64,000 bases of DNA. It comes from Phycisphaera sp. Its GTDB lineage: Bacteria > Planctomycetota > Phycisphaerae > Phycisphaerales > SM1A02. Position 1 is the first letter of the stretch. The number at the start of each line of letters is the position of its first letter. This document shows, in pieces, positions 10,225 to 29,842 of the stretch. Location: NCBI GenBank assembly GCA_016124975.1, contig WGMP01000013.1, forward strand, positions 44,926 through 108,925. The letters run 5' to 3'. The translations under genes and the position numbers were made by a program. The notes below the pieces were generated by a model. The model saw only the letters and a list, made by a program, of their open reading frames with translations. It was not told the DNA's origin and did no database searches.

Positions 10225-10249
10225 GGGGCGGAATGTAGCGGAGCGCCCG

Positions 10250-10975: not shown

Positions 10976-10977
10976 GC

Positions 10978-11047
10978 GCCGAGGGTAGCCGAGGGCAGCC
11001 GAGGAGGGCAGCCGAGGAGGGCAGCCGAGGAGGGTGCCGAGGAGGGC
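10978..11047. repeat. Tandem repeat, six 10-13 bp units (GCCGAGGAGGGCA)
   Basis: Read directly; immediately upstream of the coaB start, in the divergent coaB/gspE intergenic region. Confidence 0.93.
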
Positions 11048-11174
11048 GCCCGTCAGCCGCTGCAGGTTGCGGCGGAGGCGACGAACGGCGATACTGCAAT
11101 GCTCCCGTCCGTCTGGCGGGAGGGCCCGCGCCCGAGCGCCTTCGGCGGGGCGGCATGACTTCGGAGACGCGACC

Positions 11175-12938
11175 TTGGCCAAGCGCAGCAAGAAGAAAAT
11201 CGGCGAGATCCTGATCGAGCAGGGCGCCGTCGGACAGGCCCAGCTCGTCTCCGCCATCAACGAGGCCAAGTCCTCGGGGAAGCGGGTCGGCGAGGTCCTG
11301 ATCGAGCAGGGGACCTGCAACGAGAAGCAGATCGCCAAGGCCCTCGCCGAGCAGTTCGGGGTCGAGTTCATCGACCTCGAGAAGCCCGAGGCCCTCACCA
11401 AGATCGACCGCGGCCTCCTGAAGGAGGACCTCCAGCGCAAGTACTCGGTGCTGCCCCTCCGCAAGGAGCGCGGGACGCTCCTCCTCTGCGTGCACGACCC
11501 GCTCGAGATCGAGGCGTTCGACCTGATCGGCATGGTCGCGGGCGGCCGAGCCGACGTGGGCGCCATCTCGACGCGCAGCCAGATCACGGGCTTCATCTCG
11601 GGCGACCAGAGCGGCCCCGACCTCTCGCGCTCGCGCCTCGTGACCGCGTCGATGGACTCGACCGTCGACAAGTCGATGGACCGCTCGCAGGACCGCTCGC
11701 AGGACAGGTCGATGGACCGCTCGCTCGACTCCGACGCGAACGAGTCCGGCATCGTGCGCCTCGTCGAGCGCATGATCGTCGAGGCCGTCACCGGCCGCGC
11801 GAGCGACATCCACATCGAGCCGCGCAAGGACAATGTCCTCCTGCGCTACCGCATCGACGGCGTGTGCATCGAGCGCGACCTCATCCCGAAGTCGATGCAG
11901 AACCAGCTGCTTGCGCGCGTCAAGCTGATGGCGGGCGTGAACATCTCCGAGCGCCGTGTGCCGCAGGACGGCCGCATCAAGCAGACGATCGACGGAAAGG
12001 TCGTCGACTTCCGCGTCTCGAGCTGCCCCGCGGTCCACGGCGAGAGCATCGTCCTCCGCATCCTCCGCCCCGACAGCGCGCGCATCGGCCTCGCGGGCCT
12101 CGGCTTCGAGCAGGACAACCTCGACAACTTCAACAAGATCATCCGCCGCCCGAACGGCATCTTCCTCGTCACGGGCCCCACGGGCTCGGGCAAGACGACG
12201 ACGCTCTACTCGGCGCTCAACGACCTCAACGCGCCCGACCGCAAGATCATCACGGCCGAGGATCCCGTCGAGTACGCCTTCAAGGGCATCAACCAGGTGC
12301 AGGTGCGCGACCACATCGGCCTCACCTTCTCGACGATCCTGAAGTCGATGCTGCGCCAGGCGCCGAACATCATCCTCGTCGGCGAAATCCGAGATCGCGA
12401 AGTCGCCGACATCGCCATCCAGGCGGCGCTCACGGGCCACATGGTGTTCTCGACGCTCCACACGAACGACGCCCCGAGCGCGATCACGCGACTCATCGAC
12501 ATGGGCGTGAAGCCGTTCCTCGTGGCGAGCTCGATCCAGGCGGTCATGGGCCAGCGCCTCGTCCGCATTCTGTGCGAGAAGTGCAAGGCGCCCGAGGACA
12601 ACCCCGACCGCAAGGTGCTCCGCCTCATCGGCATGACCGAGGAAGAGGTCGCGCGCGGCGGCATGATGAAGGCCGTCGGCTGCCAGGCCTGCGGCGGCAC
12701 GGGCTACCGCGGCCGTCGCGCCATCTTCGAGCTGATGAAGATGAACCCCGAGATCCGCGACCTCGCGTTCAACCGCTCGAGCGTCGGCAAGCTCCGCGCG
12801 GCGGCCGTGCGCGGCGGCATGCGCAGCCTCGTCGAGGACGGCAAGATCAAGATCCTCCGCGGCATGACGACGCCCGTCGAGATCGCGAACTTCGCGCAGA
12901 TCGAGGGGTTCTCGCCTGAAGAGATCCACGCGACCTGA
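11175..12938 (+). CDS. GspE/PilB-type assembly ATPase with MshEN-like N-terminus
   Basis: GPTGSGKTTTLYSAL Walker A, ILVGEIRDREVADIAIQAALTGH, CxxC zinc site (CEKCKAP...CQACGGTGYRGR); probable TTG start at 11175. Confidence 0.9.
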   Translation: MAKRSKKKIGEILIEQGAVGQAQLVSAINEAKSSGKRVGEVLIEQGTCNEKQIAKALAEQFGVEFIDLEKPEALTKIDRGLLKEDLQRKYSVLPLRKERGTLLLCVHDPLEIEAFDLIGMVAGGRADVGAISTRSQITGFISGDQSGPDLSRSRLVTASMDSTVDKSMDRSQDRSQDRSMDRSLDSDANESGIVRLVERMIVEAVTGRASDIHIEPRKDNVLLRYRIDGVCIERDLIPKSMQNQLLARVKLMAGVNISERRVPQDGRIKQTIDGKVVDFRVSSCPAVHGESIVLRILRPDSARIGLAGLGFEQDNLDNFNKIIRRPNGIFLVTGPTGSGKTTTLYSALNDLNAPDRKIITAEDPVEYAFKGINQVQVRDHIGLTFSTILKSMLRQAPNIILVGEIRDREVADIAIQAALTGHMVFSTLHTNDAPSAITRLIDMGVKPFLVASSIQAVMGQRLVRILCEKCKAPEDNPDRKVLRLIGMTEEEVARGGMMKAVGCQACGGTGYRGRRAIFELMKMNPEIRDLAFNRSSVGKLRAAAVRGGMRSLVEDGKIKILRGMTTPVEIANFAQIEGFSPEEIHAT

Positions 12939-13030: not shown

Positions 13031-14146
13031 ATGTCGACCATGCAGATTGACCGTCTTCTCGACAGCATCGTCACCCTCGGGGCGTCGGACCTGCACATCT
13101 CGACGGGCCGCCCGCCGACGATCCGCCTGCACGGCAGCCTGAAGAGCCTTGCGACGAAGACGATCGAGCCCGACGACGCGACGGCGCTCATGAAGTCGAT
13201 CACGCCTGAGAAGAACCAGGCCGAGCTCGCCGAGATGGGCGGCACCGACTTCGGCTTCAGCTTCCAGGGCCGCGCGCGCTTCCGCGTGTCTGTCTTCCGC
13301 CAGCGCCAGCACATCTCGATGGTGCTTCGACTGATCCCGAACAAGCTGCTCTCGTTCGACGAGATCGGTCTCCCCAAGATCGTCGAGGAGCTCTGCCGCC
13401 GTCCGCGCGGCCTCTTCCTCGTGACGGGCCCGACGGGTTCGGGCAAGTCGACCACCCTCGCCTCGATGGTGAACTGGATCAACGAGTTCTACGACCGCCA
13501 CATCGTGACGATCGAGGACCCGATCGAGTACTACCACTACCACAAGAAGTCGGTCGTGAACCAGCGCGAGGTCGGACAGGATGTGCCGAGCTTCGCCGAG
13601 GCGCTCCGCCGCGTGCTCCGCTCCGACCCCGACGTGATCCTCGTCGGCGAAATGCGAGACCTCGAGACGATCGAGTCCGCGATCCGCGCGGCCGAGACGG
13701 GCCACCTCGTGTTCGGCACCCTCCACACCTCGGGCGCGGCCAGCACCATCAACCGAGTCATCGACGCCTTCCCCGTGAGCCAGCAGGAGCAGGTCCGCGT
13801 CCAGCTGTCGACCTCGCTCATCGCGGTGCTCTCGCAGCAGCTGTGCGCCCGCGCCGACAAGCCCGGGCGCTGCGCGGCCTACGAGTTCCTCGTGGTCACG
13901 CCCGCGATCTCGAACCTCATCCGCGAGAACAAGACCTTCCGCATCGACTCGGCCATCCAGACTGGCCGCAAGTTCGGCATGCAACTCCTCGACGACCACC
14001 TCTGGAAGCTCTACGCCGACGGCAAGGTCTCCGCGGAGGAGGTCATCGACAAGTGCAAGAACCCCGGCGACATGAAGGACAAGATCCATCGTGCGGGCGG
14101 GGTGATCGGACGCACGGAACTCGATTCGGACCACGATGCGGGCTGA
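13031..14146 (+). CDS. pilT: PilT-type twitching/retraction ATPase
   Basis: DRLLDSIVTLGASDLHISTGRPPTIRLHG, GPTGSGKSTTLASM, AIRAAETGHLVFGTLHT. Confidence 0.93.
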   Translation: MSTMQIDRLLDSIVTLGASDLHISTGRPPTIRLHGSLKSLATKTIEPDDATALMKSITPEKNQAELAEMGGTDFGFSFQGRARFRVSVFRQRQHISMVLRLIPNKLLSFDEIGLPKIVEELCRRPRGLFLVTGPTGSGKSTTLASMVNWINEFYDRHIVTIEDPIEYYHYHKKSVVNQREVGQDVPSFAEALRRVLRSDPDVILVGEMRDLETIESAIRAAETGHLVFGTLHTSGAASTINRVIDAFPVSQQEQVRVQLSTSLIAVLSQQLCARADKPGRCAAYEFLVVTPAISNLIRENKTFRIDSAIQTGRKFGMQLLDDHLWKLYADGKVSAEEVIDKCKNPGDMKDKIHRAGGVIGRTELDSDHDAG

Positions 14147-14379
14147 GTCTGGACGCGCTCGGAGCCCTTCGTGCGGTCGCGGTCTGGCCGCGCCCCGAAG
14201 CGCGTCCGAACCGCGTTCTTCGGCTGCGGGCCGTACGCAGCAATCCAAGTGTCCACACCTCCACCCCCGTTGCGCCGCGATGCCGGGGGGGTGCGCGTGC
14301 CGTATAGCACGCAGTGGGAGCGTCGCCGCACGGTGCGGCGGGGCGAGTCTGGCCAGTCGCGGCCGATCCGAGTGACCCG

Positions 14380-16152
14380 ATGTCCATCATCTCGACTGAG
14401 CAGGAGCAGCTTCTCACGATCCTCAAGGGAGCCCGCATCGGGCGCGCCTTGCGGAAGCTCGGCTACATCACGCGCGAGCAGGCTGAGGAAGCGGCCGCGC
14501 TCCAGCTCGAGGGTCGGAAGGGCGAGCTGCTCGGCCAGATCCTCGTCAGCCTCGGCCGCTGCGACCAGCGCGCCGTCGACCACGCGCTCGCGGTCACCAA
14601 GGGCATGGCGTATGTCGACCTCGACAAGTTCGACATCTCCCAGGACGCCATCAACGCCGTGGACGCGCGCCTCGTGCGCATGGGGCAGTTCGCGCCCGTC
14701 GATGTGGACATCGCGGCGCGCCGTCTCGTGATCGCCGTCAAGGATGTGAACAACTTCGGCGCCGCCGACAACCTCAAGCAGATGGGCAACTGGCGGCGGG
14801 TCACCGTCGTGGTCGCGCCCGCTGCGCAGGTCGACCGCATCATCGCCGAGAAGTATCCCGAGCGCGGCGGCGGAGGGGCCTCCGCGCTCGAGGGGATCGG
14901 AGAGGGCGGCGCGGCGGTCTCCGTCCTCGAGGGCCGCGGCGAGTCTCTCGACCTCGCGTCGCTGGAGATGGCGGCGAACGACAACGCGGTCGTGCAGCTT
15001 GTGCAGCGCCTGCTTCTCGTCGCCATCGAGGACAAGGCGAGCGACATCCACCTCGAGCCCTTCGAGGACGAGTTCAAGGTGCGCTACCGCATCGACGGCG
15101 TCCTCTACGACATGCATGCGCCAGCGAAGTCGCTGGCGACGGCGCTCGTCTCGCGCGTGAAGGTCATGTCGAAGCTCGACATCGCCGAGCGCCGCCTCCC
15201 GCAGGACGGCCGCATCGAGTTCATGCTGCCGACGGGGCCGATCGACCTCCGCGTCGCCGTGCTTCCCACGATGTTCGGCGAGTCGGTGGTGCTCCGTATC
15301 CTCGACCGCTCGAATGTGCAGCTCTCGCTCGACAAGGTCGGCATGGCGCCCGACGACCTCGAGAGGTTCCGCACGCTGATCAACAAGCCGAACGGCATCG
15401 TCGTCGTCACGGGCCCGACGGGCTCGGGCAAGACGACCACGCTCTACGCAGCGCTCAACGAGCTGAACGACCCGGGCGTCAAGATCCTCACCGCGGAGGA
15501 TCCCGTCGAGTACGACGTGCAGGGCCTCATCCAGTGCCAGGTCAACCTCGAGCAGGAGCTGACCTTCGCGAAGCTCCTCCGAAGCTTCCTCCGCCAGGAC
15601 CCCGACATCATCCTCGTCGGCGAAATCCGTGACCTCGAGACCGCGCAGATCGCCATCCAGGCATCGCTGACGGGCCACCTCGTGCTCACCACGCTCCACA
15701 CGAACGACGCGCCGAGCACCATCCTGCGTCTCGTCGACCTCGGAGTGGAGACCTTCCTCCTCACCGCGACGATCGAGGCGATCGTGGCGCAGCGGCTCGT
15801 GCGCCGCGTGTGCGTGAAGTGCAAGGAGGCGTACACGCCCAACGAGGAGCAGCTGATGGAGCTCGCGCTCCGTCCGCGCGACGTCGAGGGCAAGCAGTTC
15901 TACCGAGGCCGCGGCAAGGGCTGCGACTTCTGCCGTCGCTCGGGCTACAAGGGCCGAAAGGGCCTCTACGAGATCATGGCGATGGACGACGACCTGCGCG
16001 AACTCGTCATGAAGCAGGCCTCGACCTCCGTGCTCAGGCAGGAAGCCAAGAAGCGCGGCATGCGCACCCTCCGCGAGGCGGGCCTCAACGCGATCTACAA
16101 CGGCGAGACCACGATCGACGAGGTCGTGCGCGAGACGATGACGGACGAGTGA
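14380..16152 (+). CDS. Second GspE/PilB-type assembly ATPase
   Basis: GPTGSGKTTTLYAAL, LVGEIRDLETAQIAIQASLTGH, CVKCKEAY...CDFCRRSGYKGR. Confidence 0.93.
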   Translation: MSIISTEQEQLLTILKGARIGRALRKLGYITREQAEEAAALQLEGRKGELLGQILVSLGRCDQRAVDHALAVTKGMAYVDLDKFDISQDAINAVDARLVRMGQFAPVDVDIAARRLVIAVKDVNNFGAADNLKQMGNWRRVTVVVAPAAQVDRIIAEKYPERGGGGASALEGIGEGGAAVSVLEGRGESLDLASLEMAANDNAVVQLVQRLLLVAIEDKASDIHLEPFEDEFKVRYRIDGVLYDMHAPAKSLATALVSRVKVMSKLDIAERRLPQDGRIEFMLPTGPIDLRVAVLPTMFGESVVLRILDRSNVQLSLDKVGMAPDDLERFRTLINKPNGIVVVTGPTGSGKTTTLYAALNELNDPGVKILTAEDPVEYDVQGLIQCQVNLEQELTFAKLLRSFLRQDPDIILVGEIRDLETAQIAIQASLTGHLVLTTLHTNDAPSTILRLVDLGVETFLLTATIEAIVAQRLVRRVCVKCKEAYTPNEEQLMELALRPRDVEGKQFYRGRGKGCDFCRRSGYKGRKGLYEIMAMDDDLRELVMKQASTSVLRQEAKKRGMRTLREAGLNAIYNGETTIDEVVRETMTDE

Positions 16153-16190: not shown

Positions 16191-16268
16191 GCCGAACGAG
16201 CCGACCAACACACCTGATTGACCGAGGCCGCGCACGCGGCCGACCCGAGACGAATCACGGAGCACACC

Positions 16269-17561
16269 ATGCCCACCTACGCGTACGACGCGATGAACAA
16301 CGCAGGCAAGAAGACCTCAGGAACGGTCGAGGCCACCACCGCCGAGGAGGCGGTGAAGAAGATCCGTTCGCAGGGGCTCTTCCCGAGCAGCGTGAAGGAG
16401 CAGAAGGTCGCGGGCGGCACGGGCGGCGGCGGCGCCAAGAAGGTGCGCGACGTCAAGAAGAAGAAGAAGGGGTTCAACATCTCCTTCGGCGGCGTGAGCA
16501 CCAAGAAGCTCACGCTCTTCACGCGCCAGCTGTCGACGCTGCAGGACGCAGGCCTGCCGCTTCTCCGCTCGATCCAGATCCTCGAGAGCCAGCAGCGCCC
16601 CGGCGCCCTGAAGAATGTGCTCCAGGGCGTGGCCGAGGAGGTCGAGTCGGGCACCAGCCTCTCGGAGTCGATGGCGAAGTTCCCGCGCTGCTTCGACCGC
16701 CTCTACACCAAGATGGTGGCGGCGGGCGAGGTCGGCGGCGTGCTCGATGTGATCCTCCAGCGTCTCGCGGAGTTCATGGAGAAGGGCCAGCGCCTCAAGC
16801 GGCGCATCATCGGCGCCCTCATCTATCCCGCGGTCGTCATCTTCATCGCCGTCCTCATCGTGACGGGCATCATGTACTTCGTCATCCCGAAGTTCCAGGA
16901 GATCTTCGAGGACTTCGACGTGAAGCTTCCGCAGCTCACGATCTTCATGATCAACAGCTCGAAGTGGGTCGCGGGCACGGCGTCGAAGGACCAGGTGGTG
17001 CCGGGCGCGATCTGGGTGCTCTGTTCTCCCATCATCATCTTCCTGTTCTTCAAGCTGATCAGGAAGACGAACCCTGGAAGGGCGGTGACCGACATCATCG
17101 TGCTGCGCGTGCCCGTGATCGGGACGCTCTTGAGAAAGACGGCGATCGCGCGCTTCACGCGGACGCTGGGAACGCTCATCAGCGCGGGCGTGCCCATCCT
17201 CGAGGCGATCCTCATCACCCGCGACACCTCGGGCAACTATGTGTTCGAGCGCGCGCTCACCAAGGTCCATGACTCGATCCGCGAGGGCGAGACCTTCGCC
17301 GTGCCGCTGCGCGAGGCCAAGGTCTGCGATGCCATCGTCGTCAACATGATCGACGTCGGCGAGGAGACGGGCGACCTCGATGTGATGCTCATGAAGATCG
17401 CCGACAACTACGACGAAGAAGTCGATGTCGCGGTCGCGAGCCTCCTGTCGCTCCTCGAGCCGTTCATGGTCGTCATCCTCGGCGGCATCGTGCTCATCAT
17501 CGTCCTCGCGCTCTTCCTTCCGCTCGTCTCCATGATCGAGTCGGTGTCGGGCGGCAAGTGA
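16269..17561 (+). CDS. PilC/GspF inner-membrane platform protein
   Basis: MPTYAYDAMNNAGKKTSGTVEA, FTRQLSTLQDAGLPLLRSI, GEVGGVLDVILQRLAEFMEK, VGEETGDLD. Confidence 0.93.
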   Translation: MPTYAYDAMNNAGKKTSGTVEATTAEEAVKKIRSQGLFPSSVKEQKVAGGTGGGGAKKVRDVKKKKKGFNISFGGVSTKKLTLFTRQLSTLQDAGLPLLRSIQILESQQRPGALKNVLQGVAEEVESGTSLSESMAKFPRCFDRLYTKMVAAGEVGGVLDVILQRLAEFMEKGQRLKRRIIGALIYPAVVIFIAVLIVTGIMYFVIPKFQEIFEDFDVKLPQLTIFMINSSKWVAGTASKDQVVPGAIWVLCSPIIIFLFFKLIRKTNPGRAVTDIIVLRVPVIGTLLRKTAIARFTRTLGTLISAGVPILEAILITRDTSGNYVFERALTKVHDSIREGETFAVPLREAKVCDAIVVNMIDVGEETGDLDVMLMKIADNYDEEVDVAVASLLSLLEPFMVVILGGIVLIIVLALFLPLVSMIESVSGGK

Positions 17562-17659: not shown

Positions 17660-18736
17660 ATGCATCGCGAACCGAGCCCATTCCATCACGCGCGCGCCCG
17701 TCGGGCGGGCTTCACGCTCACGGAGCTCCTCGTGGTGGTCGCGATCATCGTGATCCTCATCGGGTCCCTCGTGGTCGCGCTCGGCGCGGCCGCGAAGCGC
17801 GCCCAGGCCGCGAACACGACCGCGCTCATGAACGCGATCTCGACGGGCCTCGGAAAGTTCGAGGGCGACTTCGGCTATCTACCGCCCGTGCTCGGCCCGC
17901 GTGACACGGGCGCGCCTGCGGAGGGCCGCGGCCGTGATGTGGTGCGCATCGGCGATGTCGGCTCGGGCGGCGTCGTGCAGCGCCAGCAGGACTGGCTCTC
18001 CTACACCACGCTCGCCGAGTATCTCATCGGCTACGGCCACCGCGGTCAGGACGGCTACGGCCGCGTTCCGGGTGGCGCAGCGGGCCCAGGCGACCGCGAG
18101 GCGCCGCCGTTCGGCATCCGCTCGCCAGGGCCCGACGGCGCGTTCGGCTCGATCGACTCGCCGCAGCCCGCGCTCGCCGCGAACCCCGCCTTCCGAGGCT
18201 ACTACCGCGCGCGGAACCCCGCGCGCCTCGCCACGCCTCCCGCGATCAACAACACGAACTGGAACACCCAGCCCGTCGAGGGCCGCGTCTTCGGGCCCTA
18301 CATCGACCAGATCGACGACCGCCTTCTCGGCGGCGTCACGGGCTACCAGGCGAACGGTCGACCGACGATCGTGACCGCCGACCAAGGCGTGCCCAACTTC
18401 GACCAGCTTCCGAAGGTCCTCCTCGACTACTGGGGTGAGCCGATCGCCTACTACCGCCGGCCCTACGGAGGCGACGACCTGCGCAGCACGGTCTCCGACG
18501 CGAACGGCAACCTCGCGAACCTCGGCGACATCTATGTGCTCCGCGGCTGGGAGATCGCGCCAGGCGACCAGGCTGTGGGCGCTCCCGACGCCTCGGGCGA
18601 CGACAGCTCGAGCGCGCACCTGAAGGGCGCGTCGTTCGCCCTCGTCTCGACGGGCCCAGACCGCTCGTTCAACCGCGCCGTGCGCCGCGACGACCCCGAG
18701 TTTAACAAGGACAACATCGTGCAGACGGGCCGCTGA
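17660..18736 (+). CDS. Pseudopilin 1 (type II secretion GspG-like)
   Basis: Prepilin motif RRAG|FTLTELLVVVAIIVILIGSLVVAL. Confidence 0.85.
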   Translation: MHREPSPFHHARARRAGFTLTELLVVVAIIVILIGSLVVALGAAAKRAQAANTTALMNAISTGLGKFEGDFGYLPPVLGPRDTGAPAEGRGRDVVRIGDVGSGGVVQRQQDWLSYTTLAEYLIGYGHRGQDGYGRVPGGAAGPGDREAPPFGIRSPGPDGAFGSIDSPQPALAANPAFRGYYRARNPARLATPPAINNTNWNTQPVEGRVFGPYIDQIDDRLLGGVTGYQANGRPTIVTADQGVPNFDQLPKVLLDYWGEPIAYYRRPYGGDDLRSTVSDANGNLANLGDIYVLRGWEIAPGDQAVGAPDASGDDSSSAHLKGASFALVSTGPDRSFNRAVRRDDPEFNKDNIVQTGR

Positions 18737-18766: not shown

Positions 18767-19594
18767 ATGGACCGAACCAACCGACAACTCCCGACCGAGG
18801 CCCGCGCGCGCGGCTTCACGCTGATCGAGCTCCTCGTCGTGCTCGGCATCATCGTCCTCCTCGCGAGCCTGGTGCTTGCGGTGTCGGGCAGCGTGATCCG
18901 CGCAAGCGAAGAGCGCGCTACGCGCAACACGCTTGAGATCCTGAACGCGGCCACCGAGGAGTTCGAGCGCACGCTCGATCGGCGCGTGACCTACCGCCAT
19001 GCGGCGACGGTGAACGGGATCACGGCCGATCCGACGACGGTCGGCGGTATCTCGCAGCGCTACGACATCGACGGTGCCGCAACCGTGCCGGTCGCGGGCA
19101 GCGGCGCAGCGAACTGGAACAACCTGCAGGTGCCGTATGTGAGCCCGGGGACCAACGGCCTTCCCGCCTACTCGAACCTTCCTGCGCGCCGCACCGCGAA
19201 CCTCCTGTGGGTGATGAGCCAGACGGAGGCTGTCGCGCCCATCCTGCAGAAGCTTCCCGACAGCGTGCTTCGCAACATCCGCTTCACGACGGGCGTGAAC
19301 TACAGCACGCTCCGCCACTGCGTCGACAGCTGGGAGACGCCGATCATCGCCATCTTCCCGGGCCGCGAGGCCACGCAGGCCGAGATCGAGGGCTCGCCGA
19401 ACGCGGTCGACGAGGACGGCACCATCAAGTCGGACAGCGAGTGGGCCGCCGCCACCGCGGGCGGACTGCGGCTGTCGTGCAAGGACCGCCGCATCCTCTG
19501 GGTGTCTGCGGGCAACGACACGCGCTTCAGCGACACGCCCGTGAGCGGCGTGTCGAACCCGAGCGCCGACAACCTCTACAGCTACGAACCGTGA
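18767..19594 (+). CDS. Pseudopilin 2
   Basis: RARG|FTLIELLVVLGIIVLLASLVLAV. Confidence 0.85.
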   Translation: MDRTNRQLPTEARARGFTLIELLVVLGIIVLLASLVLAVSGSVIRASEERATRNTLEILNAATEEFERTLDRRVTYRHAATVNGITADPTTVGGISQRYDIDGAATVPVAGSGAANWNNLQVPYVSPGTNGLPAYSNLPARRTANLLWVMSQTEAVAPILQKLPDSVLRNIRFTTGVNYSTLRHCVDSWETPIIAIFPGREATQAEIEGSPNAVDEDGTIKSDSEWAAATAGGLRLSCKDRRILWVSAGNDTRFSDTPVSGVSNPSADNLYSYEP

Positions 19595-19602
19595 GGACCT
19601 CC

Positions 19603-20580
19603 ATGCGCGACGAGCGGCACGACATCCTCCCGACCCGAAGGCCGCGCGCCGCGCGCGCGGCGGGCTTCACCATCATCGAGCTCCTCGTCGTCATCGGCGT
19701 GATCGGCATCCTCGCCGTCATCACCACGCTCGGCGCCCGCAGGCTCACCGCAAGTTCGCGCCTCGCCTCTGGCACGAACGCCGTCACCAACGCGCTCGGC
19801 ATCGCGCGCGCGGCCGCCATCCGCGACTCCGCGCCCACCGCGCTCATCTTCCGCCCCGTGTGGGACCCGACGAAGCCGTTCATCCCGCAGCGGGTCGAGA
19901 TGGTCGTGGTGCGCTGGACGGGCGAGCAGCCGCCCTTCCTGAACAGTGCGGGCGATGTCATCGGCTACAAGCAGCGCTATCGCCCCGTGGCGGGAATCCC
20001 CGCGATCCAGCTGCCCGAGGGGATCAAGGTCGCGGCTCCGATCTACCAGTATCCGCCGGGCGGCAACGCCTTCCCCGAAGGCTCCGTGCTGGTCACCCAG
20101 GCGGAGCTTCCGCTGATGGCCACCTGCGCCGAGAGCGCGACCTGCAACAGGCAGATCGCCGTCCTCTTCGGCCCGCGCGGCGAGTTCCTCACGCGTCCGC
20201 CCGACACGACCCTCCTCGACGCGATGATGTTCGTCGACTGGAACAACGACGGCGCGCTGGCGACGCCGAACGACCCCGCGAACCCGAACGACGACCCGCT
20301 CGATGTGCAGGACGCGAGCGAGGGTGGCTGCGCGGACTCTTCGTCGAACTACGAGAAGTTCTGGTGGCAGGACCACCCCAACGACGAGAACAACATCCTG
20401 CTCGTTCCGTTCCTCATCGTCTACGACGACAAGGCCGCGCGCGAGCTGAAGGGGACCAACTGGTCCAACGACACCAACCTGATCAACGAACTCACGGGCC
20501 CGACGGGCTACATCGCGCAGTTCGGCGACCGAATCACCTTCAACCGCTTCAGCGGCATTCCCGAACGGAGGGTCCGTTGA
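19603..20580 (+). CDS. Pseudopilin 3 (GspH-like)
   Basis: RAAG|FTIIELLVVIGVIGILAVITTLGARRL. Confidence 0.85.
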   Translation: MRDERHDILPTRRPRAARAAGFTIIELLVVIGVIGILAVITTLGARRLTASSRLASGTNAVTNALGIARAAAIRDSAPTALIFRPVWDPTKPFIPQRVEMVVVRWTGEQPPFLNSAGDVIGYKQRYRPVAGIPAIQLPEGIKVAAPIYQYPPGGNAFPEGSVLVTQAELPLMATCAESATCNRQIAVLFGPRGEFLTRPPDTTLLDAMMFVDWNNDGALATPNDPANPNDDPLDVQDASEGGCADSSSNYEKFWWQDHPNDENNILLVPFLIVYDDKAARELKGTNWSNDTNLINELTGPTGYIAQFGDRITFNRFSGIPERRVR

Positions 20581-21899
20581 TGCACGGAACCGCATCGATC
20601 CCCGCACGCGCCTTGCGCGCGCCGCGCGGCTTCTCGCTCGTCGAGATGCTGCTCGCGGTCTTCATCCTCGGAATCGGCGTGATCTCGATCGCGGCGCTCT
20701 TCCCGGCGGGCATTGCCCTGCAGCGGCAGGCGACCGACGACACGCTCGGCCCGATCATCGCGAAGAACGCCTTCGCGACGATCCGCTCGAAGCTGTCGCA
20801 GGACGACTTCGGCGGGTTCAACGACTTCGGGCTCGCGCCCGTCTACGCGGCGGGAGTCGGCCCAGCTGGCACGATCCGCCCTGTGGGCGGCACCGACCTC
20901 CCGCAGCTCGGCGGCGACTGGGGCTGGATGCGCCCCGCGTTCTACACGAACAACAACAGCGCGGCCGTCGGAACGATCGACATCTTCTCCGCGAGCTTCG
21001 CGCGCCAGCAGGCGCCGTTCAACCTGCCTGCGCGCCCGCAGACCCCTGGCGTCGCGTGGGCGACCGAGATGCCTGACGGCCACCCGGGTGGACCGCTCTT
21101 CGGCATTCCCTACAACAGGGCGAAGTACCCGCTCTTCGACATCGCGGCGTCGGATCCCGCGGCGGTTCCCGCGTCGCTCGACCTCCAGGCGCTGCTCGAG
21201 CCCGCGATCACCTTCTCGCAGGCAGAGCGCTCGTTCCCGCAGATCGGAAGCGGCGATGTCGCCGTCCCGACCTACTACTGGGAATGCATGTTCCGTCGCA
21301 CGGGTGGCAAGGTCGAGGTCGCGGTGTTCGTCTTCCGCGTCAGCGTGCCTGGCGGTGACACGCAGCCCTATGCGACGCGCGCGCTCAACAACTCGGTCCT
21401 TGTCGGCACGCCCGCCGCGCCAGGCGGTTCTTTCGAGGCGGGCCCGCAGACGCCGCCGATTCCAGCGCTCTACCTCGCGCCGAACTTCGGGCAGGCGACC
21501 TCGTGGCCGAACCGAAGCAACGCCGCCGCCGCCCGTGACGAGATCCCAGGCACGCAGGTGAACAGCGCCTTCGCCCCAAATCTGATCTGGGACGACTGGC
21601 AGCTGCCGAACGCTTGGTGGATCGACAACCACGGCACCGTGCACCGCGTGCTGCAGGGCCGCTCGCGCAGCACGCAGGGCCCCGTCAAGCTGCAGCGCCC
21701 GATTCCCATCCTGCCGAACTCGCCCGTGCACGGCTACAACCCAGCGCCCGCCGTCTCAGGGACCTATCCGCAGCTTCCCGAGGCGAACAACAGGCGCGTC
21801 GGCCCGAACGGCTGGATCCAGGGGATCTGGTTCGTGCCCCAGCGCGACGCGCGCGGCAACATCCTGACGCCGATCTTCGCGGCGGTGGAGGAACTCTGA
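20580..21899 (+). CDS. Pseudopilin 4 (PilV/GspI-like)
   Basis: APRG|FSLVEMLLAVFILGIGVISIAALFPAGI; start ATG overlaps previous stop (TGATG). Confidence 0.83.
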   Translation: MHGTASIPARALRAPRGFSLVEMLLAVFILGIGVISIAALFPAGIALQRQATDDTLGPIIAKNAFATIRSKLSQDDFGGFNDFGLAPVYAAGVGPAGTIRPVGGTDLPQLGGDWGWMRPAFYTNNNSAAVGTIDIFSASFARQQAPFNLPARPQTPGVAWATEMPDGHPGGPLFGIPYNRAKYPLFDIAASDPAAVPASLDLQALLEPAITFSQAERSFPQIGSGDVAVPTYYWECMFRRTGGKVEVAVFVFRVSVPGGDTQPYATRALNNSVLVGTPAAPGGSFEAGPQTPPIPALYLAPNFGQATSWPNRSNAAAARDEIPGTQVNSAFAPNLIWDDWQLPNAWWIDNHGTVHRVLQGRSRSTQGPVKLQRPIPILPNSPVHGYNPAPAVSGTYPQLPEANNRRVGPNGWIQGIWFVPQRDARGNILTPIFAAVEEL

Positions 21900-23560
21900 T
21901 GGCACGCCGAGCATCCAGCCCATCGAGGCGCAGCGCCTTCACGCTCACCGAACTGCTCATCGCCGTCGGCGTCCTCGTCGTCGTCGTCGTCGCGGCGGCG
22001 CGCATCTTCGGCGCCGCGTCGAAGGTGTCGTCGGTCGCGGAGGCGAACGCAGACCTCCTCCAGACGGCGGCCGCGATCGAGTCGCAGATCCGCGCCGACT
22101 TCGCAAACATTCCGCAGAACAGCTTCCTCGTCCTGCAGCAGGTCGAGGTGAACCGGCGCGGCACGCTGCAGACGCTCGACCCGTCGCTTGGGAGCTCCGA
22201 GATCCGCGCCGACCAGATCGCCTTCTTCAGCCGCGGCGCGCAGCCGACGCAGCAGTTCGTGGGCTACGACCAGCTGCAGCCGCTCGGCTCGACGGTCGCC
22301 CCCGCGTGGCCGCCCGAGTCGACCGTGGCGCGCATCTACTACGGCCACGGGCTTCTCGCCTCGACGCTGCAGCAGGGCTTTGGCCCGCTCAGCTACGACG
22401 GCACGAACGCGCCCGTGGTGCCTTGGATCAGCGGCGCGGTCGAGACGCAGAACTGGCTGACGGGCGCCCCGCAGTCGGGCACCCCGCGCATCACCGCCGC
22501 GAAGCCGAGCCTCTGGCCGCTCGCGCGCATCGCGACGCTGATGACGACCGACGGGCTTCTCAACCAGCGCTTCGCCTCGACGGGCGCCAACAACGCCACG
22601 CAGCGCCTCTTCACGGGCTCGGGCAACCTCAGCGTCCAGCTTGGCCCGCTCAGCTCTGTGGCTCCGACGGGCGCCACCCCGTTTGACCCGCTCTGGACCT
22701 CGTCGCGCGTCGACATCTGCAAGTGGCAGATGGACGACCTGCTGACGCAGATGGCCTATCAGTACAACACCTCTGGCATTCCCAGCTCGCTGCCGTTCGC
22801 GCGCGCGGTGGGGCCGTGGCAGGGGCCGTCGACGCGCCTGCGCATGCTGCAGACGCTCGCGCCATGGGGCATCAACGCCACGAAGGCGTCGCCCGCGGAC
22901 GCGAGCAACCCGAACTCGAACCACTTCGTCGGCTATCCGCGCGTCGAGAAGGCCGCGCTCGGTTCTGCGCGCGCGGAGCAGATGATCGCGGCGCCTGTCC
23001 TCGCTGCGAACTGCTCGAGCTTCAAGGTCGAGTGGACCTATGACGACGGCGTGGGGCGCTCGTGGGTCGGCCCCACGGGCTTCGGCCCGAGCGGCGCGAT
23101 CTCGGGTGCCGAGCCAATCGGCATGTACATCCGCCCAGGCGCCGAGCGCCCGTGGTTCGGCCTCGACGACGGCACCGCCAGCAGCGCTGTGCGACCGCTG
23201 TCGAACGCGCCGCTCTTCACGAACGCTGGAACGATCGGCTCATGGGGCGCGGTCGGACTTCCCCTCGTCGTCTCGGACGGCACCCAACCGCTGACATCGT
23301 CGATCGAAGGCGCGCTCAATCCATCAGGCGGTGCGCCGATCTGGACGACGAGCAGCGCGCAGGGCTCGAAGCGCGTCTACCAGGCCGTCTTCGGCATGAA
23401 TCAGAGCGACCCCGCGATCACCTCGCCCGCCGCCACCGCGCGCGGCCCGTACACGCCGCTTCCGAGCGCGCTGCGCATCACCATGCGTCTGCATGACCCG
23501 CTCGGCCGCATCGAAGGCGGCCGCGAATTCCAGTTCATCGTGAACCTGCCCAAGCGTTGA
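21899..23560 (+). CDS. Pseudopilin 5 (PilW/GspJ-like)
   Basis: RRSA|FTLTELLIAVGVLVVVVVAAARIF; TGATG overlap with previous gene; Ala rather than Gly at -1. Confidence 0.82.
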   Translation: MARRASSPSRRSAFTLTELLIAVGVLVVVVVAAARIFGAASKVSSVAEANADLLQTAAAIESQIRADFANIPQNSFLVLQQVEVNRRGTLQTLDPSLGSSEIRADQIAFFSRGAQPTQQFVGYDQLQPLGSTVAPAWPPESTVARIYYGHGLLASTLQQGFGPLSYDGTNAPVVPWISGAVETQNWLTGAPQSGTPRITAAKPSLWPLARIATLMTTDGLLNQRFASTGANNATQRLFTGSGNLSVQLGPLSSVAPTGATPFDPLWTSSRVDICKWQMDDLLTQMAYQYNTSGIPSSLPFARAVGPWQGPSTRLRMLQTLAPWGINATKASPADASNPNSNHFVGYPRVEKAALGSARAEQMIAAPVLAANCSSFKVEWTYDDGVGRSWVGPTGFGPSGAISGAEPIGMYIRPGAERPWFGLDDGTASSAVRPLSNAPLFTNAGTIGSWGAVGLPLVVSDGTQPLTSSIEGALNPSGGAPIWTTSSAQGSKRVYQAVFGMNQSDPAITSPAATARGPYTPLPSALRITMRLHDPLGRIEGGREFQFIVNLPKR

Positions 23561-23604: not shown

Positions 23605-26600
23605 ATGAAGCCGCACGCCATCAAGGGCACCAGTTCGAACCGCACGCGCCGTGGCAACACGATCGTGCTGGTCACGGCGATCCTCGTGCTCCTCGTGATC
23701 ATCGCGACGGCCTTCGTGGGCCGCACGCGCGCCGTGCGCCAGATCTCCGCGGCGCAGCAGTCGTCGGCGGGCCGCGACGGCCGCGCAGAGTCGATCGCGC
23801 GCAATGTGGCAGCCGAGATCGGCGAGGCGCTCTTCGCAAAGCCCGTCGATACAAGCGATCCGTTCGCGCGCACCGACAATTCTGTCACGCCGCCCGTCGG
23901 AGTCGCAAGCTCCTCGTGGCCGCGCCTCGCGCCCGCGCTCGACGCGCCGCGCTACTCGATCGACCGCGATGTGCTGCCCGTCGCGGGCGCGACGAACCCC
24001 GTCGCCGGTGACGGCGTCCCCGACTTCCCCTACAACATCGCGCCCTTCGAGACGAAGGCGTGGACGAACTGGCCCGACCAGTTCGGCGGCGCGAGCCCGT
24101 GGCCCTTCGGCGCGGGTGCCCCGGGCGGAACGCTCGTCGACGCGAACGGCAACGCCATCGGCGACGGCAACCCCTACGGCAACCCCGGCATGGGCGACTC
24201 GCGCTGGCTCCGCTCGACAGAGCCCGTGCGCGTGGGCGTCGACCAGAACGCAGACGGCATCTCCGACCTCTTCACCTTCTCGCATTGGCAGCACCTCTCG
24301 TGGCTGCCGAGCGCGAACAACGGCTGGCGCGTGGTCGCCGACATCTCCGACATCGGCGCCAATGTCGTCGACAACATGAACGAGGCAAGCGCGCCGCCCT
24401 ACGCGGTGGCGTGGCCCTACGAGCAGTGGCTGCCAGGCGTCGTGCCGAACCCGATCGCGAACACGGCCGACTTCATCTCGCGCCGCAACCAGTGGTTCTT
24501 CGACTATCCGAGCGTCTACGCGAACCCTGCGCTCGCGCTGCCGAACTTCTTCCGCCTGCGCGACCTCGGCCGCCCGACCGACGAGTTCAAGCCCGACACC
24601 GCGCGCAATGTGATCTCGCGCACCTTCGCGGACTCGGACGGCGATGGCTTCACGGACAGCTTCTGGTTCCTCGCGCCCGTCGGCGCAGACCGCGGCGTGC
24701 GCACGCTCGTGGGCGTGTCGGTCGTCGACAACTCGGCGCTCCTCAATGCGAATGTCGCCACGAAGTTCAGCTTCGGCTACGGCGCAGACCCCTCGATCGG
24801 CCTGAACAACCCGATCGACGGCACCGCGGGCCACACGCCCGCAGACCTCGCGCTTGTGACGAGCAACGCCGAGTTCGAGCCGTTCTTCGACGAGCGCAAC
24901 ACGGTGGGCTTCTTCGATGGGCCGATCAACCAGAGCGCGACCAACCCAACGGGCGGGACCTTCCCCACCTACTGGACGGGCACGCCGCAGGTCGCGCTTC
25001 CGAACAGCCAGATCCGCTTCGACCGCGAGCGCTTCGGCGACCGTGTGAACCAGCTCGGAAACCCGATCAACGCGCCGATGTCGTTCCTGCAGGCGATCGG
25101 CATGCGCACCGCGAACGGCCTCACCGATGGCGGCGTGCCGCTCGCTGGTCTCTCGCTGCGCGACACCACGCTTCCTGCGCCGCTGCAGGGCTCGTTCGAG
25201 AGCCAGCGCGAGCGTCTCTCCTACTTCAAGATCGCGGGCCTCGACCCCGAGAAGCCCGCCTTCGGACTCACGCCCTTCGACGCGGCCGACGAGTACGAGC
25301 TGCGCGCGCTCCACGGGAACAACCTCCCGTTCAGCCTCTCGCGCTTCGAGCAGGCCGTCAGCTACTACAGCCCGTCGCTGCAGGGCGTCGCCGCGGGCGA
25401 CTTCCAGTTCCTCCGCGCCTCCCCGATGCGCGAGGAGTCGAGCGAATACCTCGACCAGCTCGACGCGCGCCAGCTCCTCCTTGACAACCGCCGCAAGCTG
25501 ACCATGTTCAACGGCGCGCGCAACGAGACGATGCCGCCCGCGCTGTGGCCGAGCCCGTACTACGAGGAGACCTTCAACTACCTCAACCCGCGCGGCACGG
25601 TCCCTGCGCCGACGAGCCCCGACTGGGCGCCGTTCCAGCAGGCGAACCGCGCGGAGTTCGAGCGCCAGAAGCTCAAGATCGACCTGCGGCGCCCGATGTT
25701 CGTCGGCGCAAACGGCGCCCCGCAGATCACGCGCAACCCGTTCCGCGGCCTCCAGTGGCGCCGCGACCTCGCGCGCGTCCTCGAGAACTCGCTCGCCCGC
25801 GCCATCGACGCGAACGGCGACGGCGTGCTCGACACCTGGAAGAGCTACTTCGGCACGCGCGAGGCCGACTACAACCGCACGCTGTCGATGATCGCAAGCT
25901 TCACCGCGAACCTCGACACGGCGAGCGACGAGCCCGTGACGCTCGGAACCTCTGGCGTCGCGCTCGACCTTCCGCTCTATCCGAACCAGCCCATCATCGA
26001 TCCGAGCGGCTACTTCCCGCCGCAGACCGATGCGTCGCCCGACCCCTTCGACGCGGACCGCTTCTACATCGGCATGGAGAAGCAGCCCTTCATCATGGAG
26101 GTCTTCGTCGGCGTGGTGTGGCCGAAGAGCGACTTCAACGAGGCCGAGTGGGTCTCTGCGGGCGGCCAGGCGCCGCCGGCTGGGCAGGAGGAGCTGCCGC
26201 CCGATGTCGACGACGGCGGCGAGAACTTCGTCGACCGGACGAGCAGCCCCACGCTCATCGCCGCGGTGCAGATCGCGAACCCCTACGACACGCCGATCTC
26301 GCTTGGCGACATCCGCCTGCGCTTCTACGGCCAGAACTTCAACTTTACGGCCGCAGCGATCGCTGCGGGCAGCCCGCCGCTCAGCGAGCTCGTGCTGCCG
26401 CCCGCCACGCTCGGCAGGCCGAGCACGGCGATCGTCTACGCGGTCTCGGGCGGCGCAGTCGGCAGCTACCCCGCGGGCGCGTTCCGCGCGGCGGTGCTTG
26501 ACTTCTTCGACCTCGAGCGCGGCGAAATGCAGGGAACGACCTTCCAGCCGAACACCGACACCGACGGCGACGGCATCATCGAGCACGCCGCGCTCCACGA

Positions 26601-28803
26601 CACGCGCGGCGTCGAGCCCGATGTCGACGAGCAGGACCGCACGCTCGTCTTTGACGCCACGGGTTCCTGGAATGTGAACCTGTCGGGCACCTTTGGCCCC
26701 TACACGAACAACTCGCAGCAGCCCGTCGAGATCGTGCGCAACATCCTTCCGCCCGCGGGTGTCGGCGGCGGGCCGAAGGCGATCGTGGTCGACCGCTTCG
26801 ACAACGACATCAGCGGGCCAGAGGTCCGCTTCAACGAGGCCGCCAACCGCCTCTTCACCGACCCGCAGTTCCTGCCGCCCGAGAAGGCCTACAACTGGGA
26901 CATCAACCCCGCGCGGCGCTATGTGGCGGGCATCCGCATCCGCGACGACGACTTCTACATGACCTGGTGCCGCGCGAGCCGCATCTGGGCCTTCGACCTC
27001 GATACCTGGGACGACCCGAGCGTTCCGCTTGACCAGAAGCGGATCTCTGCCGTCGAGCGGTCTCCGCGCTATGTCTTCAGCATGGCCACCGAGCCCGTGC
27101 GCGCCACGCGCGCGCTCGAGGGCGTCGACACGGGCGGCGCGCGCCTGACGGGCGCGGGCGCCTACAAGGGCGACACCTTCAAGGTCGGACAGGACCCCGA
27201 CGGCGACGCCTCGGGCGCTGGCCGCTGGGCGAACCTCGCGTGGGTCGACATGTTCGGCCGCACGCTCCGCTCGAAGCCCGTCTTCTTCACGAACCTGACC
27301 GTGATCCCCGCGGGCGGCGACGAGGTCATCTCCGCGACCTCCCCGACCGAGCCGATGCCGTTCCTTCCTGCGCTCGGGCTTCCCGACGCTGCGGCCGACA
27401 TCTACTTCCAGGATTGCCACGGCGCCGTCGAGTACAACGGCACCACCTACGAGTGGATGATCGGAAACAAGGGCGCGAGCGCGGCGGACTGGAACCGCTT
27501 CAAGGATGTCGCGGTCGCCACGATTCCCTTCCAGATGACGCAGAAGGACGGCGACTTCGAGCAGATCGGCGAGGTCCTCGATGTGTTCCTGTGGGGCCAT
27601 GTCCTCGAGAACTGGGCCACGCCGAGCACCTTCCGCACCTTCTCCGAGATCATGCTGATCGAGGACGAGGACGACCAGTTCTACCCGGGCTCGGGCGTCT
27701 ACACGAACCGCCTCGAGATCCGCGCGCCGCAGGAGATCGACGCGGACGACCCCGGCACCGTCGTGCTCGGCCCGCGCTTTGAGCCGACGGCCACCACGGT
27801 GCCGCCGACCCCGATCGCAGGATTCGCCGCGTGGCAGCCCGCGCTTCCCGCGGGCATCGGCTTCCTCGACGCGCTGACGATCGACGGCTCGGGGCGCAAC
27901 AGCTTCGACCGCAACGGGAACAGCAGCTACGACACGATCGCGGGTAACCCAGGCATCGCGAACACCGACGAGGCGCTCGCCGAGGAACGCCGCTTCCGTC
28001 TCTCGCACGGCTACCTCGGCCGCAAGACCTCGGGCCTCATCAACCTGAACACGGCGCTGCCGGAGGTGATGCAGGCGCTGCCGATGGCGACGCGACTTCC
28101 GCGCGTGAACGGCATCACGCCGTACTCGCGCTTCGCCGACGCCGTGCGTCTTTACCGCGACCACCAGGTGCCCGGCGCGCCGTTCGGCATTCCGCTCGCG
28201 GCGGTGCCGAACTACCGCGACCGCGGCCTGACGCCGACGCAGCTCTCGAGCACCGCGCCGACCTTCTACGCGGGCATGCGCAATGAGCAGGGTTTCTCGT
28301 CGATCGGCGAGCTGCTCCTTCTCCAGCGCATTCCGCCCGACACGATTGCGCCGCACCTGCGCGCGGCCTACAGCGCGCGCTGGATGGGCTTCGACCCGTA
28401 CGCCGACCTCGCGGGCAACTTCAGCGGCTTCGACATCGGGTATTCGTGGTCGACCGACCGCACCAACCCGCGGCCGCGGCAGCTGCCCGCCGATGTCCTC
28501 TTCGGGATCGGCGGCAACACGAATGTGCCGACGAAGCAGCACGAGGAGCCGCTCGGCGACGCCGAGGACCTCAACCTCCTCTTCAAGGGCGTGTCGAACC
28601 TCGTCACCACGCGCAGCGATGTCTTCACGGTCTACCTGCGCGTGCGACAGGTGCGGCAGAACCCCGTGAACGGCCGCTGGGACGCCATGAACCCCGACCT
28701 GATCGTCGACGAGTCGCGCTATGTGCTGTGCGTCGACCGCAGCGAGGTGAACTCGCCGAGCGACGAGCCGAGGATCGTGTACTTCCAGCGCGTGCCGAAC
28801 TGA
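23605..28803 (+). CDS. Giant GspK-like minor pseudopilin / pilus-tip candidate (~1,730 aa)
   Basis: N-term TRRGNTIVLVTAILVLLVIIATAFVGRTRA; C-term SGLINLNTALPEVMQALP and FSSIGELLLLQRIPPDTI resemble GspK helix-hairpin-helix signatures; last gene of the pseudopilin run. Confidence 0.75.
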   Translation: MKPHAIKGTSSNRTRRGNTIVLVTAILVLLVIIATAFVGRTRAVRQISAAQQSSAGRDGRAESIARNVAAEIGEALFAKPVDTSDPFARTDNSVTPPVGVASSSWPRLAPALDAPRYSIDRDVLPVAGATNPVAGDGVPDFPYNIAPFETKAWTNWPDQFGGASPWPFGAGAPGGTLVDANGNAIGDGNPYGNPGMGDSRWLRSTEPVRVGVDQNADGISDLFTFSHWQHLSWLPSANNGWRVVADISDIGANVVDNMNEASAPPYAVAWPYEQWLPGVVPNPIANTADFISRRNQWFFDYPSVYANPALALPNFFRLRDLGRPTDEFKPDTARNVISRTFADSDGDGFTDSFWFLAPVGADRGVRTLVGVSVVDNSALLNANVATKFSFGYGADPSIGLNNPIDGTAGHTPADLALVTSNAEFEPFFDERNTVGFFDGPINQSATNPTGGTFPTYWTGTPQVALPNSQIRFDRERFGDRVNQLGNPINAPMSFLQAIGMRTANGLTDGGVPLAGLSLRDTTLPAPLQGSFESQRERLSYFKIAGLDPEKPAFGLTPFDAADEYELRALHGNNLPFSLSRFEQAVSYYSPSLQGVAAGDFQFLRASPMREESSEYLDQLDARQLLLDNRRKLTMFNGARNETMPPALWPSPYYEETFNYLNPRGTVPAPTSPDWAPFQQANRAEFERQKLKIDLRRPMFVGANGAPQITRNPFRGLQWRRDLARVLENSLARAIDANGDGVLDTWKSYFGTREADYNRTLSMIASFTANLDTASDEPVTLGTSGVALDLPLYPNQPIIDPSGYFPPQTDASPDPFDADRFYIGMEKQPFIMEVFVGVVWPKSDFNEAEWVSAGGQAPPAGQEELPPDVDDGGENFVDRTSSPTLIAAVQIANPYDTPISLGDIRLRFYGQNFNFTAAAIAAGSPPLSELVLPPATLGRPSTAIVYAVSGGAVGSYPAGAFRAAVLDFFDLERGEMQGTTFQPNTDTDGDGIIEHAALHDTRGVEPDVDEQDRTLVFDATGSWNVNLSGTFGPYTNNSQQPVEIVRNILPPAGVGGGPKAIVVDRFDNDISGPEVRFNEAANRLFTDPQFLPPEKAYNWDINPARRYVAGIRIRDDDFYMTWCRASRIWAFDLDTWDDPSVPLDQKRISAVERSPRYVFSMATEPVRATRALEGVDTGGARLTGAGAYKGDTFKVGQDPDGDASGAGRWANLAWVDMFGRTLRSKPVFFTNLTVIPAGGDEVISATSPTEPMPFLPALGLPDAAADIYFQDCHGAVEYNGTTYEWMIGNKGASAADWNRFKDVAVATIPFQMTQKDGDFEQIGEVLDVFLWGHVLENWATPSTFRTFSEIMLIEDEDDQFYPGSGVYTNRLEIRAPQEIDADDPGTVVLGPRFEPTATTVPPTPIAGFAAWQPALPAGIGFLDALTIDGSGRNSFDRNGNSSYDTIAGNPGIANTDEALAEERRFRLSHGYLGRKTSGLINLNTALPEVMQALPMATRLPRVNGITPYSRFADAVRLYRDHQVPGAPFGIPLAAVPNYRDRGLTPTQLSSTAPTFYAGMRNEQGFSSIGELLLLQRIPPDTIAPHLRAAYSARWMGFDPYADLAGNFSGFDIGYSWSTDRTNPRPRQLPADVLFGIGGNTNVPTKQHEEPLGDAEDLNLLFKGVSNLVTTRSDVFTVYLRVRQVRQNPVNGRWDAMNPDLIVDESRYVLCVDRSEVNSPSDEPRIVYFQRVPN

Positions 28804-28804
28804 G

Positions 28805-29842
28805 TCAGGGCCGGCCGTTGCCGCGCATCGCCGCAAGCCGGGCCACTGCGCGCTCGACGAGGAGCGGGTGGCCGGCGACGACGCCCTTGTTGGCCGAGAG
28901 CTCGCGTCCGCGACCGAAGTCGAGCGGGAAGCCCTCTGTGTCGACGACCTTGGCGCCCGCCTCCGACGCGACGAGCGCGCCTGCGGCGTGGTCCCAGATC
29001 TTCTCGCGGTAGTCGGGGCGCGTCGGAAGCCGCAGATAGAGGTCTGCGCCGCCGCGGGCGACAACGACATACTTGCACTGGCTGTCGAGGCGCGCGGGCC
29101 TGCCTGCCGCGCCAAGCGAGGCGAGGAGCTGCGCCGAGAGATCCTGCCGCGAGTGCGCGCTCTCGACCGACTCGCAGGCGCGGATGGGCTGGCCCGCGCG
29201 CCAGTCTGCGATGCGAAGCGGCGTCGGCTCGCCGTGGTCGCGCTCGATCCAGGCGCCGCCGTCCTTGACGGCGAACGCGACGCACCCGACGGGGTCGGCG
29301 CGGTCGAAGCGGTCGCCAGAGGCGGGGAGGTTCGGGCAGCCGACGACGCCGTAACGCACGGAGCCCTGCTCGATCAGTGCAAGCGAGATCGCGTACTGCT
29401 CGCCGCGGAGGAACCCCTTCGTGCCGTCGACGGGGTCGAGCGTGAAGAACGCATCCTTCGTGGGGGCGCCTCTCCCGCGGTCGATCGCCGTCAGGCACTC
29501 CTCGCGCGTCACGCGATGTCCGACGCCGAGCGCGACGGCCTCGACGACTTCGGCCAAGAGCGGCACGCTTTCGGGCGCGCGCAGCCGCGCAGCCTCCTCC
29601 TCGCCGACAAGGGGAAGCCCCGCGAGCGCGGGCGCCGTCGCCGCGAGGCGGCCAAGCTCGAGCGCGACGACCGCCTGGCTCGCCCAGTCCGCGACCGTGA
29701 CGGGGGAGCGGTCGTCCTTCTCGATCGCTGCGCCAGCCTGTGGCCCCGCCGCGCCGCGACGCGCCTGGACATGGCGCGTGGCGCGCATCGCGGCGCGCAC
29801 CGCGCGGAGCATGAAGAGGAGATCAAGGCCGTCGTCCTGCAT
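28805..29842 (-). CDS. cysQ: 3'(2'),5'-bisphosphate nucleotidase / inositol monophosphatase family (CysQ-like)
   Basis: LVGEEEA, TLDPVDGTKGFLRGEQYAISLALIE, WDHAAGALVASEAGAKV. Confidence 0.8.
   Translation of the reverse strand: MQDDGLDLLFMLRAVRAAMRATRHVQARRGAAGPQAGAAIEKDDRSPVTVADWASQAVVALELGRLAATAPALAGLPLVGEEEAARLRAPESVPLLAEVVEAVALGVGHRVTREECLTAIDRGRGAPTKDAFFTLDPVDGTKGFLRGEQYAISLALIEQGSVRYGVVGCPNLPASGDRFDRADPVGCVAFAVKDGGAWIERDHGEPTPLRIADWRAGQPIRACESVESAHSRQDLSAQLLASLGAAGRPARLDSQCKYVVVARGGADLYLRLPTRPDYREKIWDHAAGALVASEAGAKVVDTEGFPLDFGRGRELSANKGVVAGHPLLVERAVARLAAMRGNGRP

Follow-up and report, generated by a model that had tools for sequence, protein, structure and literature searches.

What a type 4 filament does is decided by its minor-pilin tip complex, in which the K protein is usually a small cap. 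In GspK, XcpX and PulK (PF03934, NF037980; PDB 3CI0 and 5VTM), chains of about 300-600 aa encoded by the last pseudopilin gene of their cluster, a stem without Glu+5 is accompanied by two hairpin motifs, the second of the INxNTA type, and a C-terminal pilin sheet. In characterised filaments it is the subunit without Glu5 that caps the tip complex (PMC10191384), and the type IVa tip complex, PilHIJK with PilY1, is likewise a minor-pilin complex with an E5-lacking cap, on a filament that PilT retracts. In modular type IV pilins of the Streptococcus sanguinis PilB/PilC type a GFxxxE pilin bears an added functional module. A bulky module of this kind could be reconciled only with a tip location of its minor pilin, and it acted as an adhesin; the most extreme modular pilin quoted in the published census has 860 residues (PMC8179133). 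The Verrucomicrobia ‘Verru_Chthon cassette' (proteins A-D), for which we found no characterised function, includes a very long protein A (TIGR02600) beside prepilin-like proteins B, C and D.

The 64,000-nucleotide stretch of Phycisphaera sp. DNA analysed here (the window) encodes a protein that shares with GspK the stem, both hairpin motifs, the C-terminal sheet and the position at the end of the pseudopilin cluster. It differs in its length of 1,732 aa (950-2,846 aa in the class), in three large inserts, in scoring below all curated GspK cut-offs, and in adjoining PilT without GspC/D/L/M. Its features are as follows.

23605 to 28803, forward strand: giant GspK-type minor pilin, 1,732 aa (translation, profile-profile matches, models and controls).
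23653 to 23832, forward strand: single N-terminal helix, residues 17-76, a pilin stem without Glu+5 (model and GspK stem profile, E 3.8e-6).
24628 to 24666, forward strand: ADSDGDGFTDSFW, residues 342-354, a possible Ca-binding loop (conservation among 28 relatives).
24709 to 24768, forward strand: first GspK-type strand/hairpin, VGVSVVDNSALLNANVAT, residues 369-388 (collinear with GspK IxDExRKxNxN, E 0.0034).
24769 to 28029, forward strand: main insert, residues 389-1475 (model; weak Lamin-Tail-Domain matches in relatives).
28030 to 28164, forward strand: second helix-hairpin-helix motif, SGLINLNTALPEVMQALP...RLYRDH, residues 1476-1520 (GspK profile, E 2.6e-12).
28585 to 28800, forward strand: C-terminal pilin sheet, TTRSDVFTVYLRVR...RYVLCVDRS...PRIVYF, residues 1661-1732 (GspK profile, E 2.2e-10; three strands in the model).

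The open reading frame runs without interruption from an ATG at 23605 to a stop codon ending at 28803, in agreement with the ∼1,730 aa given in the preliminary description of this DNA, and its GC content at the three codon positions (0.64/0.49/0.93) is that of coding genes of the window. A recent fusion or a frameshift artefact was ruled out because the relatives are intact and similar over their entire length, same-genus homologues sharing 59-66% identity from end to end. The N-terminus (...NRTRRG followed by NTIVLVTAILVLLVIIATAF) displays a prepilin-like basic stretch, Gly at -1 and one hydrophobic helix without Glu+5, as described previously, and it did not match Pfam N_methyl. Glu+5 is absent from all 79 giants inspected, relatives included, none of which has an acidic residue among its first 20 mature residues. 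The two C-terminal motifs quoted in the earlier description were located at residues 1476-1493 (SGLINLNTALPEVMQALP) and 1564-1581 (FSSIGELLLLQRIPPDTI). The loop ADSDGDGFTDSFW, in which D343, G346 and D351 are invariant and D345 and D347 are present in at least 90% of 28 relatives, resembles a calcium-binding loop and, with its nearly invariant acidic residues, is a candidate site. GspK itself binds calcium (PMC6211770), and equivalence of the two sites is only conceivable.

Searched singly, the protein had no family match in Pfam, PF03934 and PF21687 included, and single-protein sequence searches of Pfam, NCBIfam and the PDB returned nothing usable. PilX_N, sought across the whole genome, was without a match. 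A family profile built from 28 homologues gathered from related genomes retrieved only chance or generic helix-hairpin-helix matches from the PDB. The reference for profile-profile comparison was an alignment of 18 conventional GspK proteins of the phylum, which finds XcpX (5vtm, E 1e-27) and GspK (3ci0, E 1e-18) in the PDB. Against this profile the giant family aligned through four anchors in collinear order: the stem (E 3.8e-6); the first strand/hairpin, VxIVDNSAMLNxN in the giants versus IxDExRKxNxN in GspK, which is weak (E 0.0034); the second helix-hairpin-helix, PGLININTAPxEVLxALP...AIxxYRD (E 2.6e-12); and the C-terminal segment TTRSDVFTVYxRxR...RYVxxVDRS...PRIL (E 2.2e-10). When GspK was reversed or column-permuted the best value of any giant segment was 0.017. 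Some single relatives match GspK models directly, below cut-off, among them an 864-aa protein from another class (E 8e-7, the stem being the best stretch); the curated cut-offs of PF03934 and NF037980 were reached neither by the window protein, which has no match, nor by the relatives. The features that define GspK can nevertheless be read from the giant's sequence and model: a prepilin-type leader with Gly(-1), a single helix without Glu+5, an alpha domain with the helix-hairpin-helix INxNTA motif (the first motif being weak) and a C-terminal pilin beta sheet. Judged by sequence, the giant family descends from, or shares an ancestor with, GspK, because of the four collinear profile matches and the sub-cut-off matches of its relatives. 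The GspK similarity proposed for both ends of the protein was thus recovered, the N- and C-terminal parts each aligning to the validated GspK profile; the link came through profile-profile comparison, and neither PF03934 nor PF21687, the families suggested for checking it, matched directly.

Relative to GspK, the giant carries three insertions of about 260, 960 and 120 aa net. In aligned positions, the gap from stem to first hairpin spans 315 residues versus about 54 in GspK, that between the two hairpins about 1,090 versus about 127, and that before the C-terminal sheet about 140 versus about 23. The alignment portrays the protein as a GspK-type minor pilin inflated by these three insertions. 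An AlphaFold2 model of residues 1-700 was poor overall (pLDDT 57.8) and displayed one unbroken helix at residues 17-76, consistent with the single-helix stem described earlier; because this half is poor, closure of the giant's pieces into one pilin fold is not visible. The model of residues 533-1732 is better (pLDDT 71, pTM 0.77): from about 640 to 1320 it predicts a beta-rich body with confidence, and at the C-terminus a sheet of three strands. As it is predicted with good confidence, the main insert looks like a folded body rather than filler. Foldseek found no significant match for either model half in the PDB or for the second half among viral structures (BFVD), and no adhesin, lectin or enzyme fold was recognisable in the main insert. 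Weak matches to the Lamin-Tail-Domain in 5 of the 28 relatives, inside the insert where their position is shown, together with a possible similar stretch near residues 880-960 of the window protein, hint at an Ig-like sandwich in the insert.

The preliminary description placed the giant at the end of a five-pseudopilin operon, and the surrounding genes agree.

11034 to 12938, forward strand: PilB/GspE-family ATPase, start codon uncertain (TIGR02538, E 9.7e-175).
13031 to 14146, forward strand: PilT retraction ATPase (TIGR01420, 447.7 bits, above cut-off).
14314 to 16152, forward strand: PilB/GspE extension ATPase, likely ATG at 14377 (PF00437, E 3e-138; MshEN, 1.6e-9).
16218 to 17561, forward strand: PilC/GspF platform protein, likely ATG at 16269 (PF00482, two copies).
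17660 to 18736, forward strand: pseudopilin 1, GFTLTELL (N_methyl, 26.9 bits; weak GspG).
18767 to 19594, forward strand: pseudopilin 2, GFTLIELL (N_methyl, 25.7 bits).
19603 to 20580, forward strand: pseudopilin 3, GFTIIELL, GspH-like (GspH 28 bits and TIGR02596 34 bits, both below cut-off).
20580 to 21899, forward strand: pseudopilin 4, GFSLVEML, PilV/GspI-like (TIGR02523, 36 bits, below cut-off).
21899 to 23560, forward strand: pseudopilin 5, AFTLTELL, GspJ-like (weak TIGR02599/gspJ).
28805 to 29842, reverse strand: 3'(2'),5'-bisphosphate nucleotidase, adjoining the giant and convergent.

Five E5-bearing stems precede the giant, four of them above the Pfam N_methyl cut-off and the fifth just short of it (20.5 versus 21.2 bits), and the giant is the last gene of the operon because the next, the nucleotidase, is convergent. 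The flanking machinery, which comprises PilT, two PilB-type ATPases and PilC, resembles that of type 4 pili more than a complete type II secretion locus. PilB, PilC, PilT and pilins lie together in one locus, an arrangement characteristic of type IVa pili. Neither a secretin nor PilM/N/O/P/Q genes were recognised in the window. The ATPase at 11034-12938 carries an MshE-type N-terminal c-di-GMP-binding motif (NF053729, above cut-off), and both PilB/GspE-type ATPases of the operon have an MshE-type N-terminal match, which suggests that the giant's filament may be under c-di-GMP control.

The first survey covered 61 genomes, comprising that of the window itself and those of 60 relatives at genus, family or order level, and a single-sequence search matched the giant gene in 55 of these. 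Searches with a C-terminal profile also found it in three other families of the class, with weaker matches in scattered families of other classes. Within the order and class both the gene and the operon order are conserved (giants of 950-2,846 aa), while elsewhere in Planctomycetota the versions are shorter or more divergent; the best matches outside the class are frames of 842-1,582 aa, most of them preceded by co-directional PilB, PilC and pseudopilin genes. The suggested survey of relatives therefore confirmed the locus, and the term ‘lineage-specific' proved too narrow for a gene found through the order and class and reaching other classes of the phylum. Scanning public genomes yielded 78 loci from lakes and sea, nearly all labelled planctomycete, Phycisphaerae or metagenome-assembled genome (MAG), with full-length giants of 1,409 to 2,846 aa; the few titled Chloroflexi, Kuenenia or Singulisphaera are probably mislabelled bins. 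The longest giants, of 2,665-2,846 aa (L188, L198, L195, L225, L206 and L193), belong to Phycisphaerales/Phycisphaerae or planctomycete MAGs, and the labels of several point to the sea. Nearly all of the 34 loci of the order, some of which end early at contig or region borders, share one gene order, the number of pseudopilins varying from four to six.

Beyond the window, contig C7 of the genome encodes a conventional type II secretion system (T2SS) that includes a GspJ-like gene and a 578-aa GspK, with a secretin nearby.

9791 to 11524 of region L117 (contig C7), reverse strand: conventional GspK, 578 aa.

This GspK is above the cut-off of PF03934 and below that of NF037980 (E 1.5e-14). Between its two hairpin motifs it contains a long glycine-rich (GGRGGDGGG)n repeat, which occupies the same place as the main insert of the giant. 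As the T2SS on C7 has its own GspK, the giant is an additional K in a separate system. These data bear on whether the operon builds a type II-like pseudopilus, in which the giant K would be mainly periplasmic and would recognise or push large cargo, its insert serving as a substrate-docking platform. Such a role fits the position of the giant on the GspK side of the family, the likeness of its five neighbours to G/H/I/J pseudopilins and the lack of a recognisable PilT in line with the operon in the neighbourhoods checked outside Phycisphaerae. It is, however, rather unlikely given that almost every locus of the order includes PilT in the operon, that GspC/D/L/M were not recognised beside the giant within the window, and that the same genome already has the conventional system.

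Secretins are encoded on contigs C7, C15 and C18, and C15 bears a further type 4 filament-type cluster, read from open reading frames alone. The secretin on C18 is itself a giant.

30127 to 44628 of contig C18 (1628 to 16129 of region L252), reverse strand: giant secretin, 4,834-aa frame, carrying 39 Secretin_N stretches and, C-terminally, a single Secretin domain.

This frame has coding-type composition nearly throughout, and many relatives have open frames of about 2,500-5,100 aa that contain a secretin domain. If all its N-domains form rings, the protein could line a very long periplasmic tube. It was considered as a partner of the giant K: several genomes of the family with a giant K have only secretin frames <1,600 aa, and for this reason no coupling of the two is seen, within the limits set by fragmented assemblies.

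The only library match of the window protein was to TIGR02600, at the C-terminus, raising the question of whether the giant is protein A in a planctomycete branch of the Verru_Chthon cassette. Of 28 relatives, 12 match TIGR02600 in the corresponding C-terminal region (best E 8e-6); among the neighbours, pseudopilins 3, 4 and 5 match proteins D, B and C. The likeness, judged for the giant by HMM score alone, is nevertheless confined to about 50 residues (1663-1713) and reaches 14.9 bits against a cut-off of 332.3; the neighbours are also below theirs (B 16.2/51.4, C 16.0/256.5 and D 34.3/70 bits), and the giant, unlike protein A, is linked to PilB, PilT and PilC. We judge this assignment improbable; being one of family, it is compatible with a tip-cap mechanism and does not exclude it. 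A locus in another genome (L085, G044:C14:125000-144500) contains a 1,320-aa frame that aligns at its N-terminus with TIGR02600 positions 1-56 and may be a second long prepilin without E5 there.

The lengths of the operon's proteins were compared at 31 loci by phylogenetically independent contrasts on a tree derived from PilB and PilC. The length of K co-varies with pseudopilins 1, 4 and 5 (r 0.73, 0.74 and 0.63; permutation p 0.0002-0.0004), weakly with pseudopilin 3 (r 0.38) and without clear correlation with pseudopilin 2 (r 0.34, p 0.10), while at the same loci it is uncorrelated with PilB, PilC and PilT (r -0.08, 0.06 and -0.22). Co-variation with pseudopilins 1, 4 and 5 is expected if these pilins pack together with K, and it supports co-evolution of the giant with the pilins, short of proving contact. 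That pseudopilin 1, which is not I/J-like, is among the co-varying proteins counts against the tip-cap model. Co-variation with the pilins also speaks against the giant being no pilin but a protein of the surface or periplasm that an ordinary signal anchor holds in place and that resembles GspK only superficially. This explanation can point to the missing Pfam match and the weak GspK match at the first hairpin; set against the four collinear anchors, the clean controls and the strict operon position as well, it is very improbable.

From homology and synteny we infer, with moderate confidence, that the giant is a K minor pilin capping the tip complex of the type 4 filament built by its own operon, with the insert as receptor or adhesin. 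Prepilin peptidase would cut the giant after Gly17 and, because it lacks Glu+5, the protein could be only the topmost subunit of the filament. It would nucleate assembly with two partners, the I-like and J-like pseudopilins, both of which would have enlarged in parallel; PilB and PilC would extend the filament through a secretin encoded elsewhere, displaying the insert of roughly 1,000 residues outside, and PilT would retract the filament with any bound target. Exposure outside is assumed, since no secretin or PilM/N/O was recognised in the window, and a body of such size having to pass an outer-membrane channel speaks against the model. As in modular type IV pilins, a functional body would be carried by a minor pilin for which a tip position is expected; unlike in those proteins, the body, of about 1,100 residues, is inserted in an E5-lacking K, and the N-terminal GFxxxE signature (IPR012902) with an added module is lacking. 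The resemblance to the type IVa tip complex extends to the minor-pilin complex, the E5-lacking cap and PilT-driven retraction, whereas no PilY1-like gene was seen in the giant's operon; by analogy, the giant K may combine the roles of K and PilY1 in a single polypeptide. No paper describing a giant K was found among the open-access papers searched. Its newness is one of degree and architecture: the kind of tip pilin is known, and its size and internal-insert design were nowhere found described.

Other planctomycetes have pili-like fibres that bind dextran (PMC5394234). The giant is not equated with these fibres, because those species lie outside the group and crateriform structures were not observed in one Phycisphaerae isolate (PMC7783415). 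A bolder proposal, which we regard as speculative and rather doubtful, is a planctomycete retractable type 4 filament whose tip cap is a giant capture receptor of new fold, drawing in macromolecules or surfaces. Such a receptor would reach about 2,850 residues, growing in step with its partner pilins, and, if the proposal is true, could underlie macromolecule-binding pili-like fibres such as those on other planctomycetes (PMC5394234). Single-copy, operon-locked and retained throughout a class at about 950-2,850 residues, the giant K illustrates the extent to which the K alpha domain can expand. It would escape the IPR012902 filter used in the published census (PMC8179133), and censuses that require the GFxxxE motif would overlook it. 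For the question of what planctomycetal pili bind, it provides a concrete candidate.
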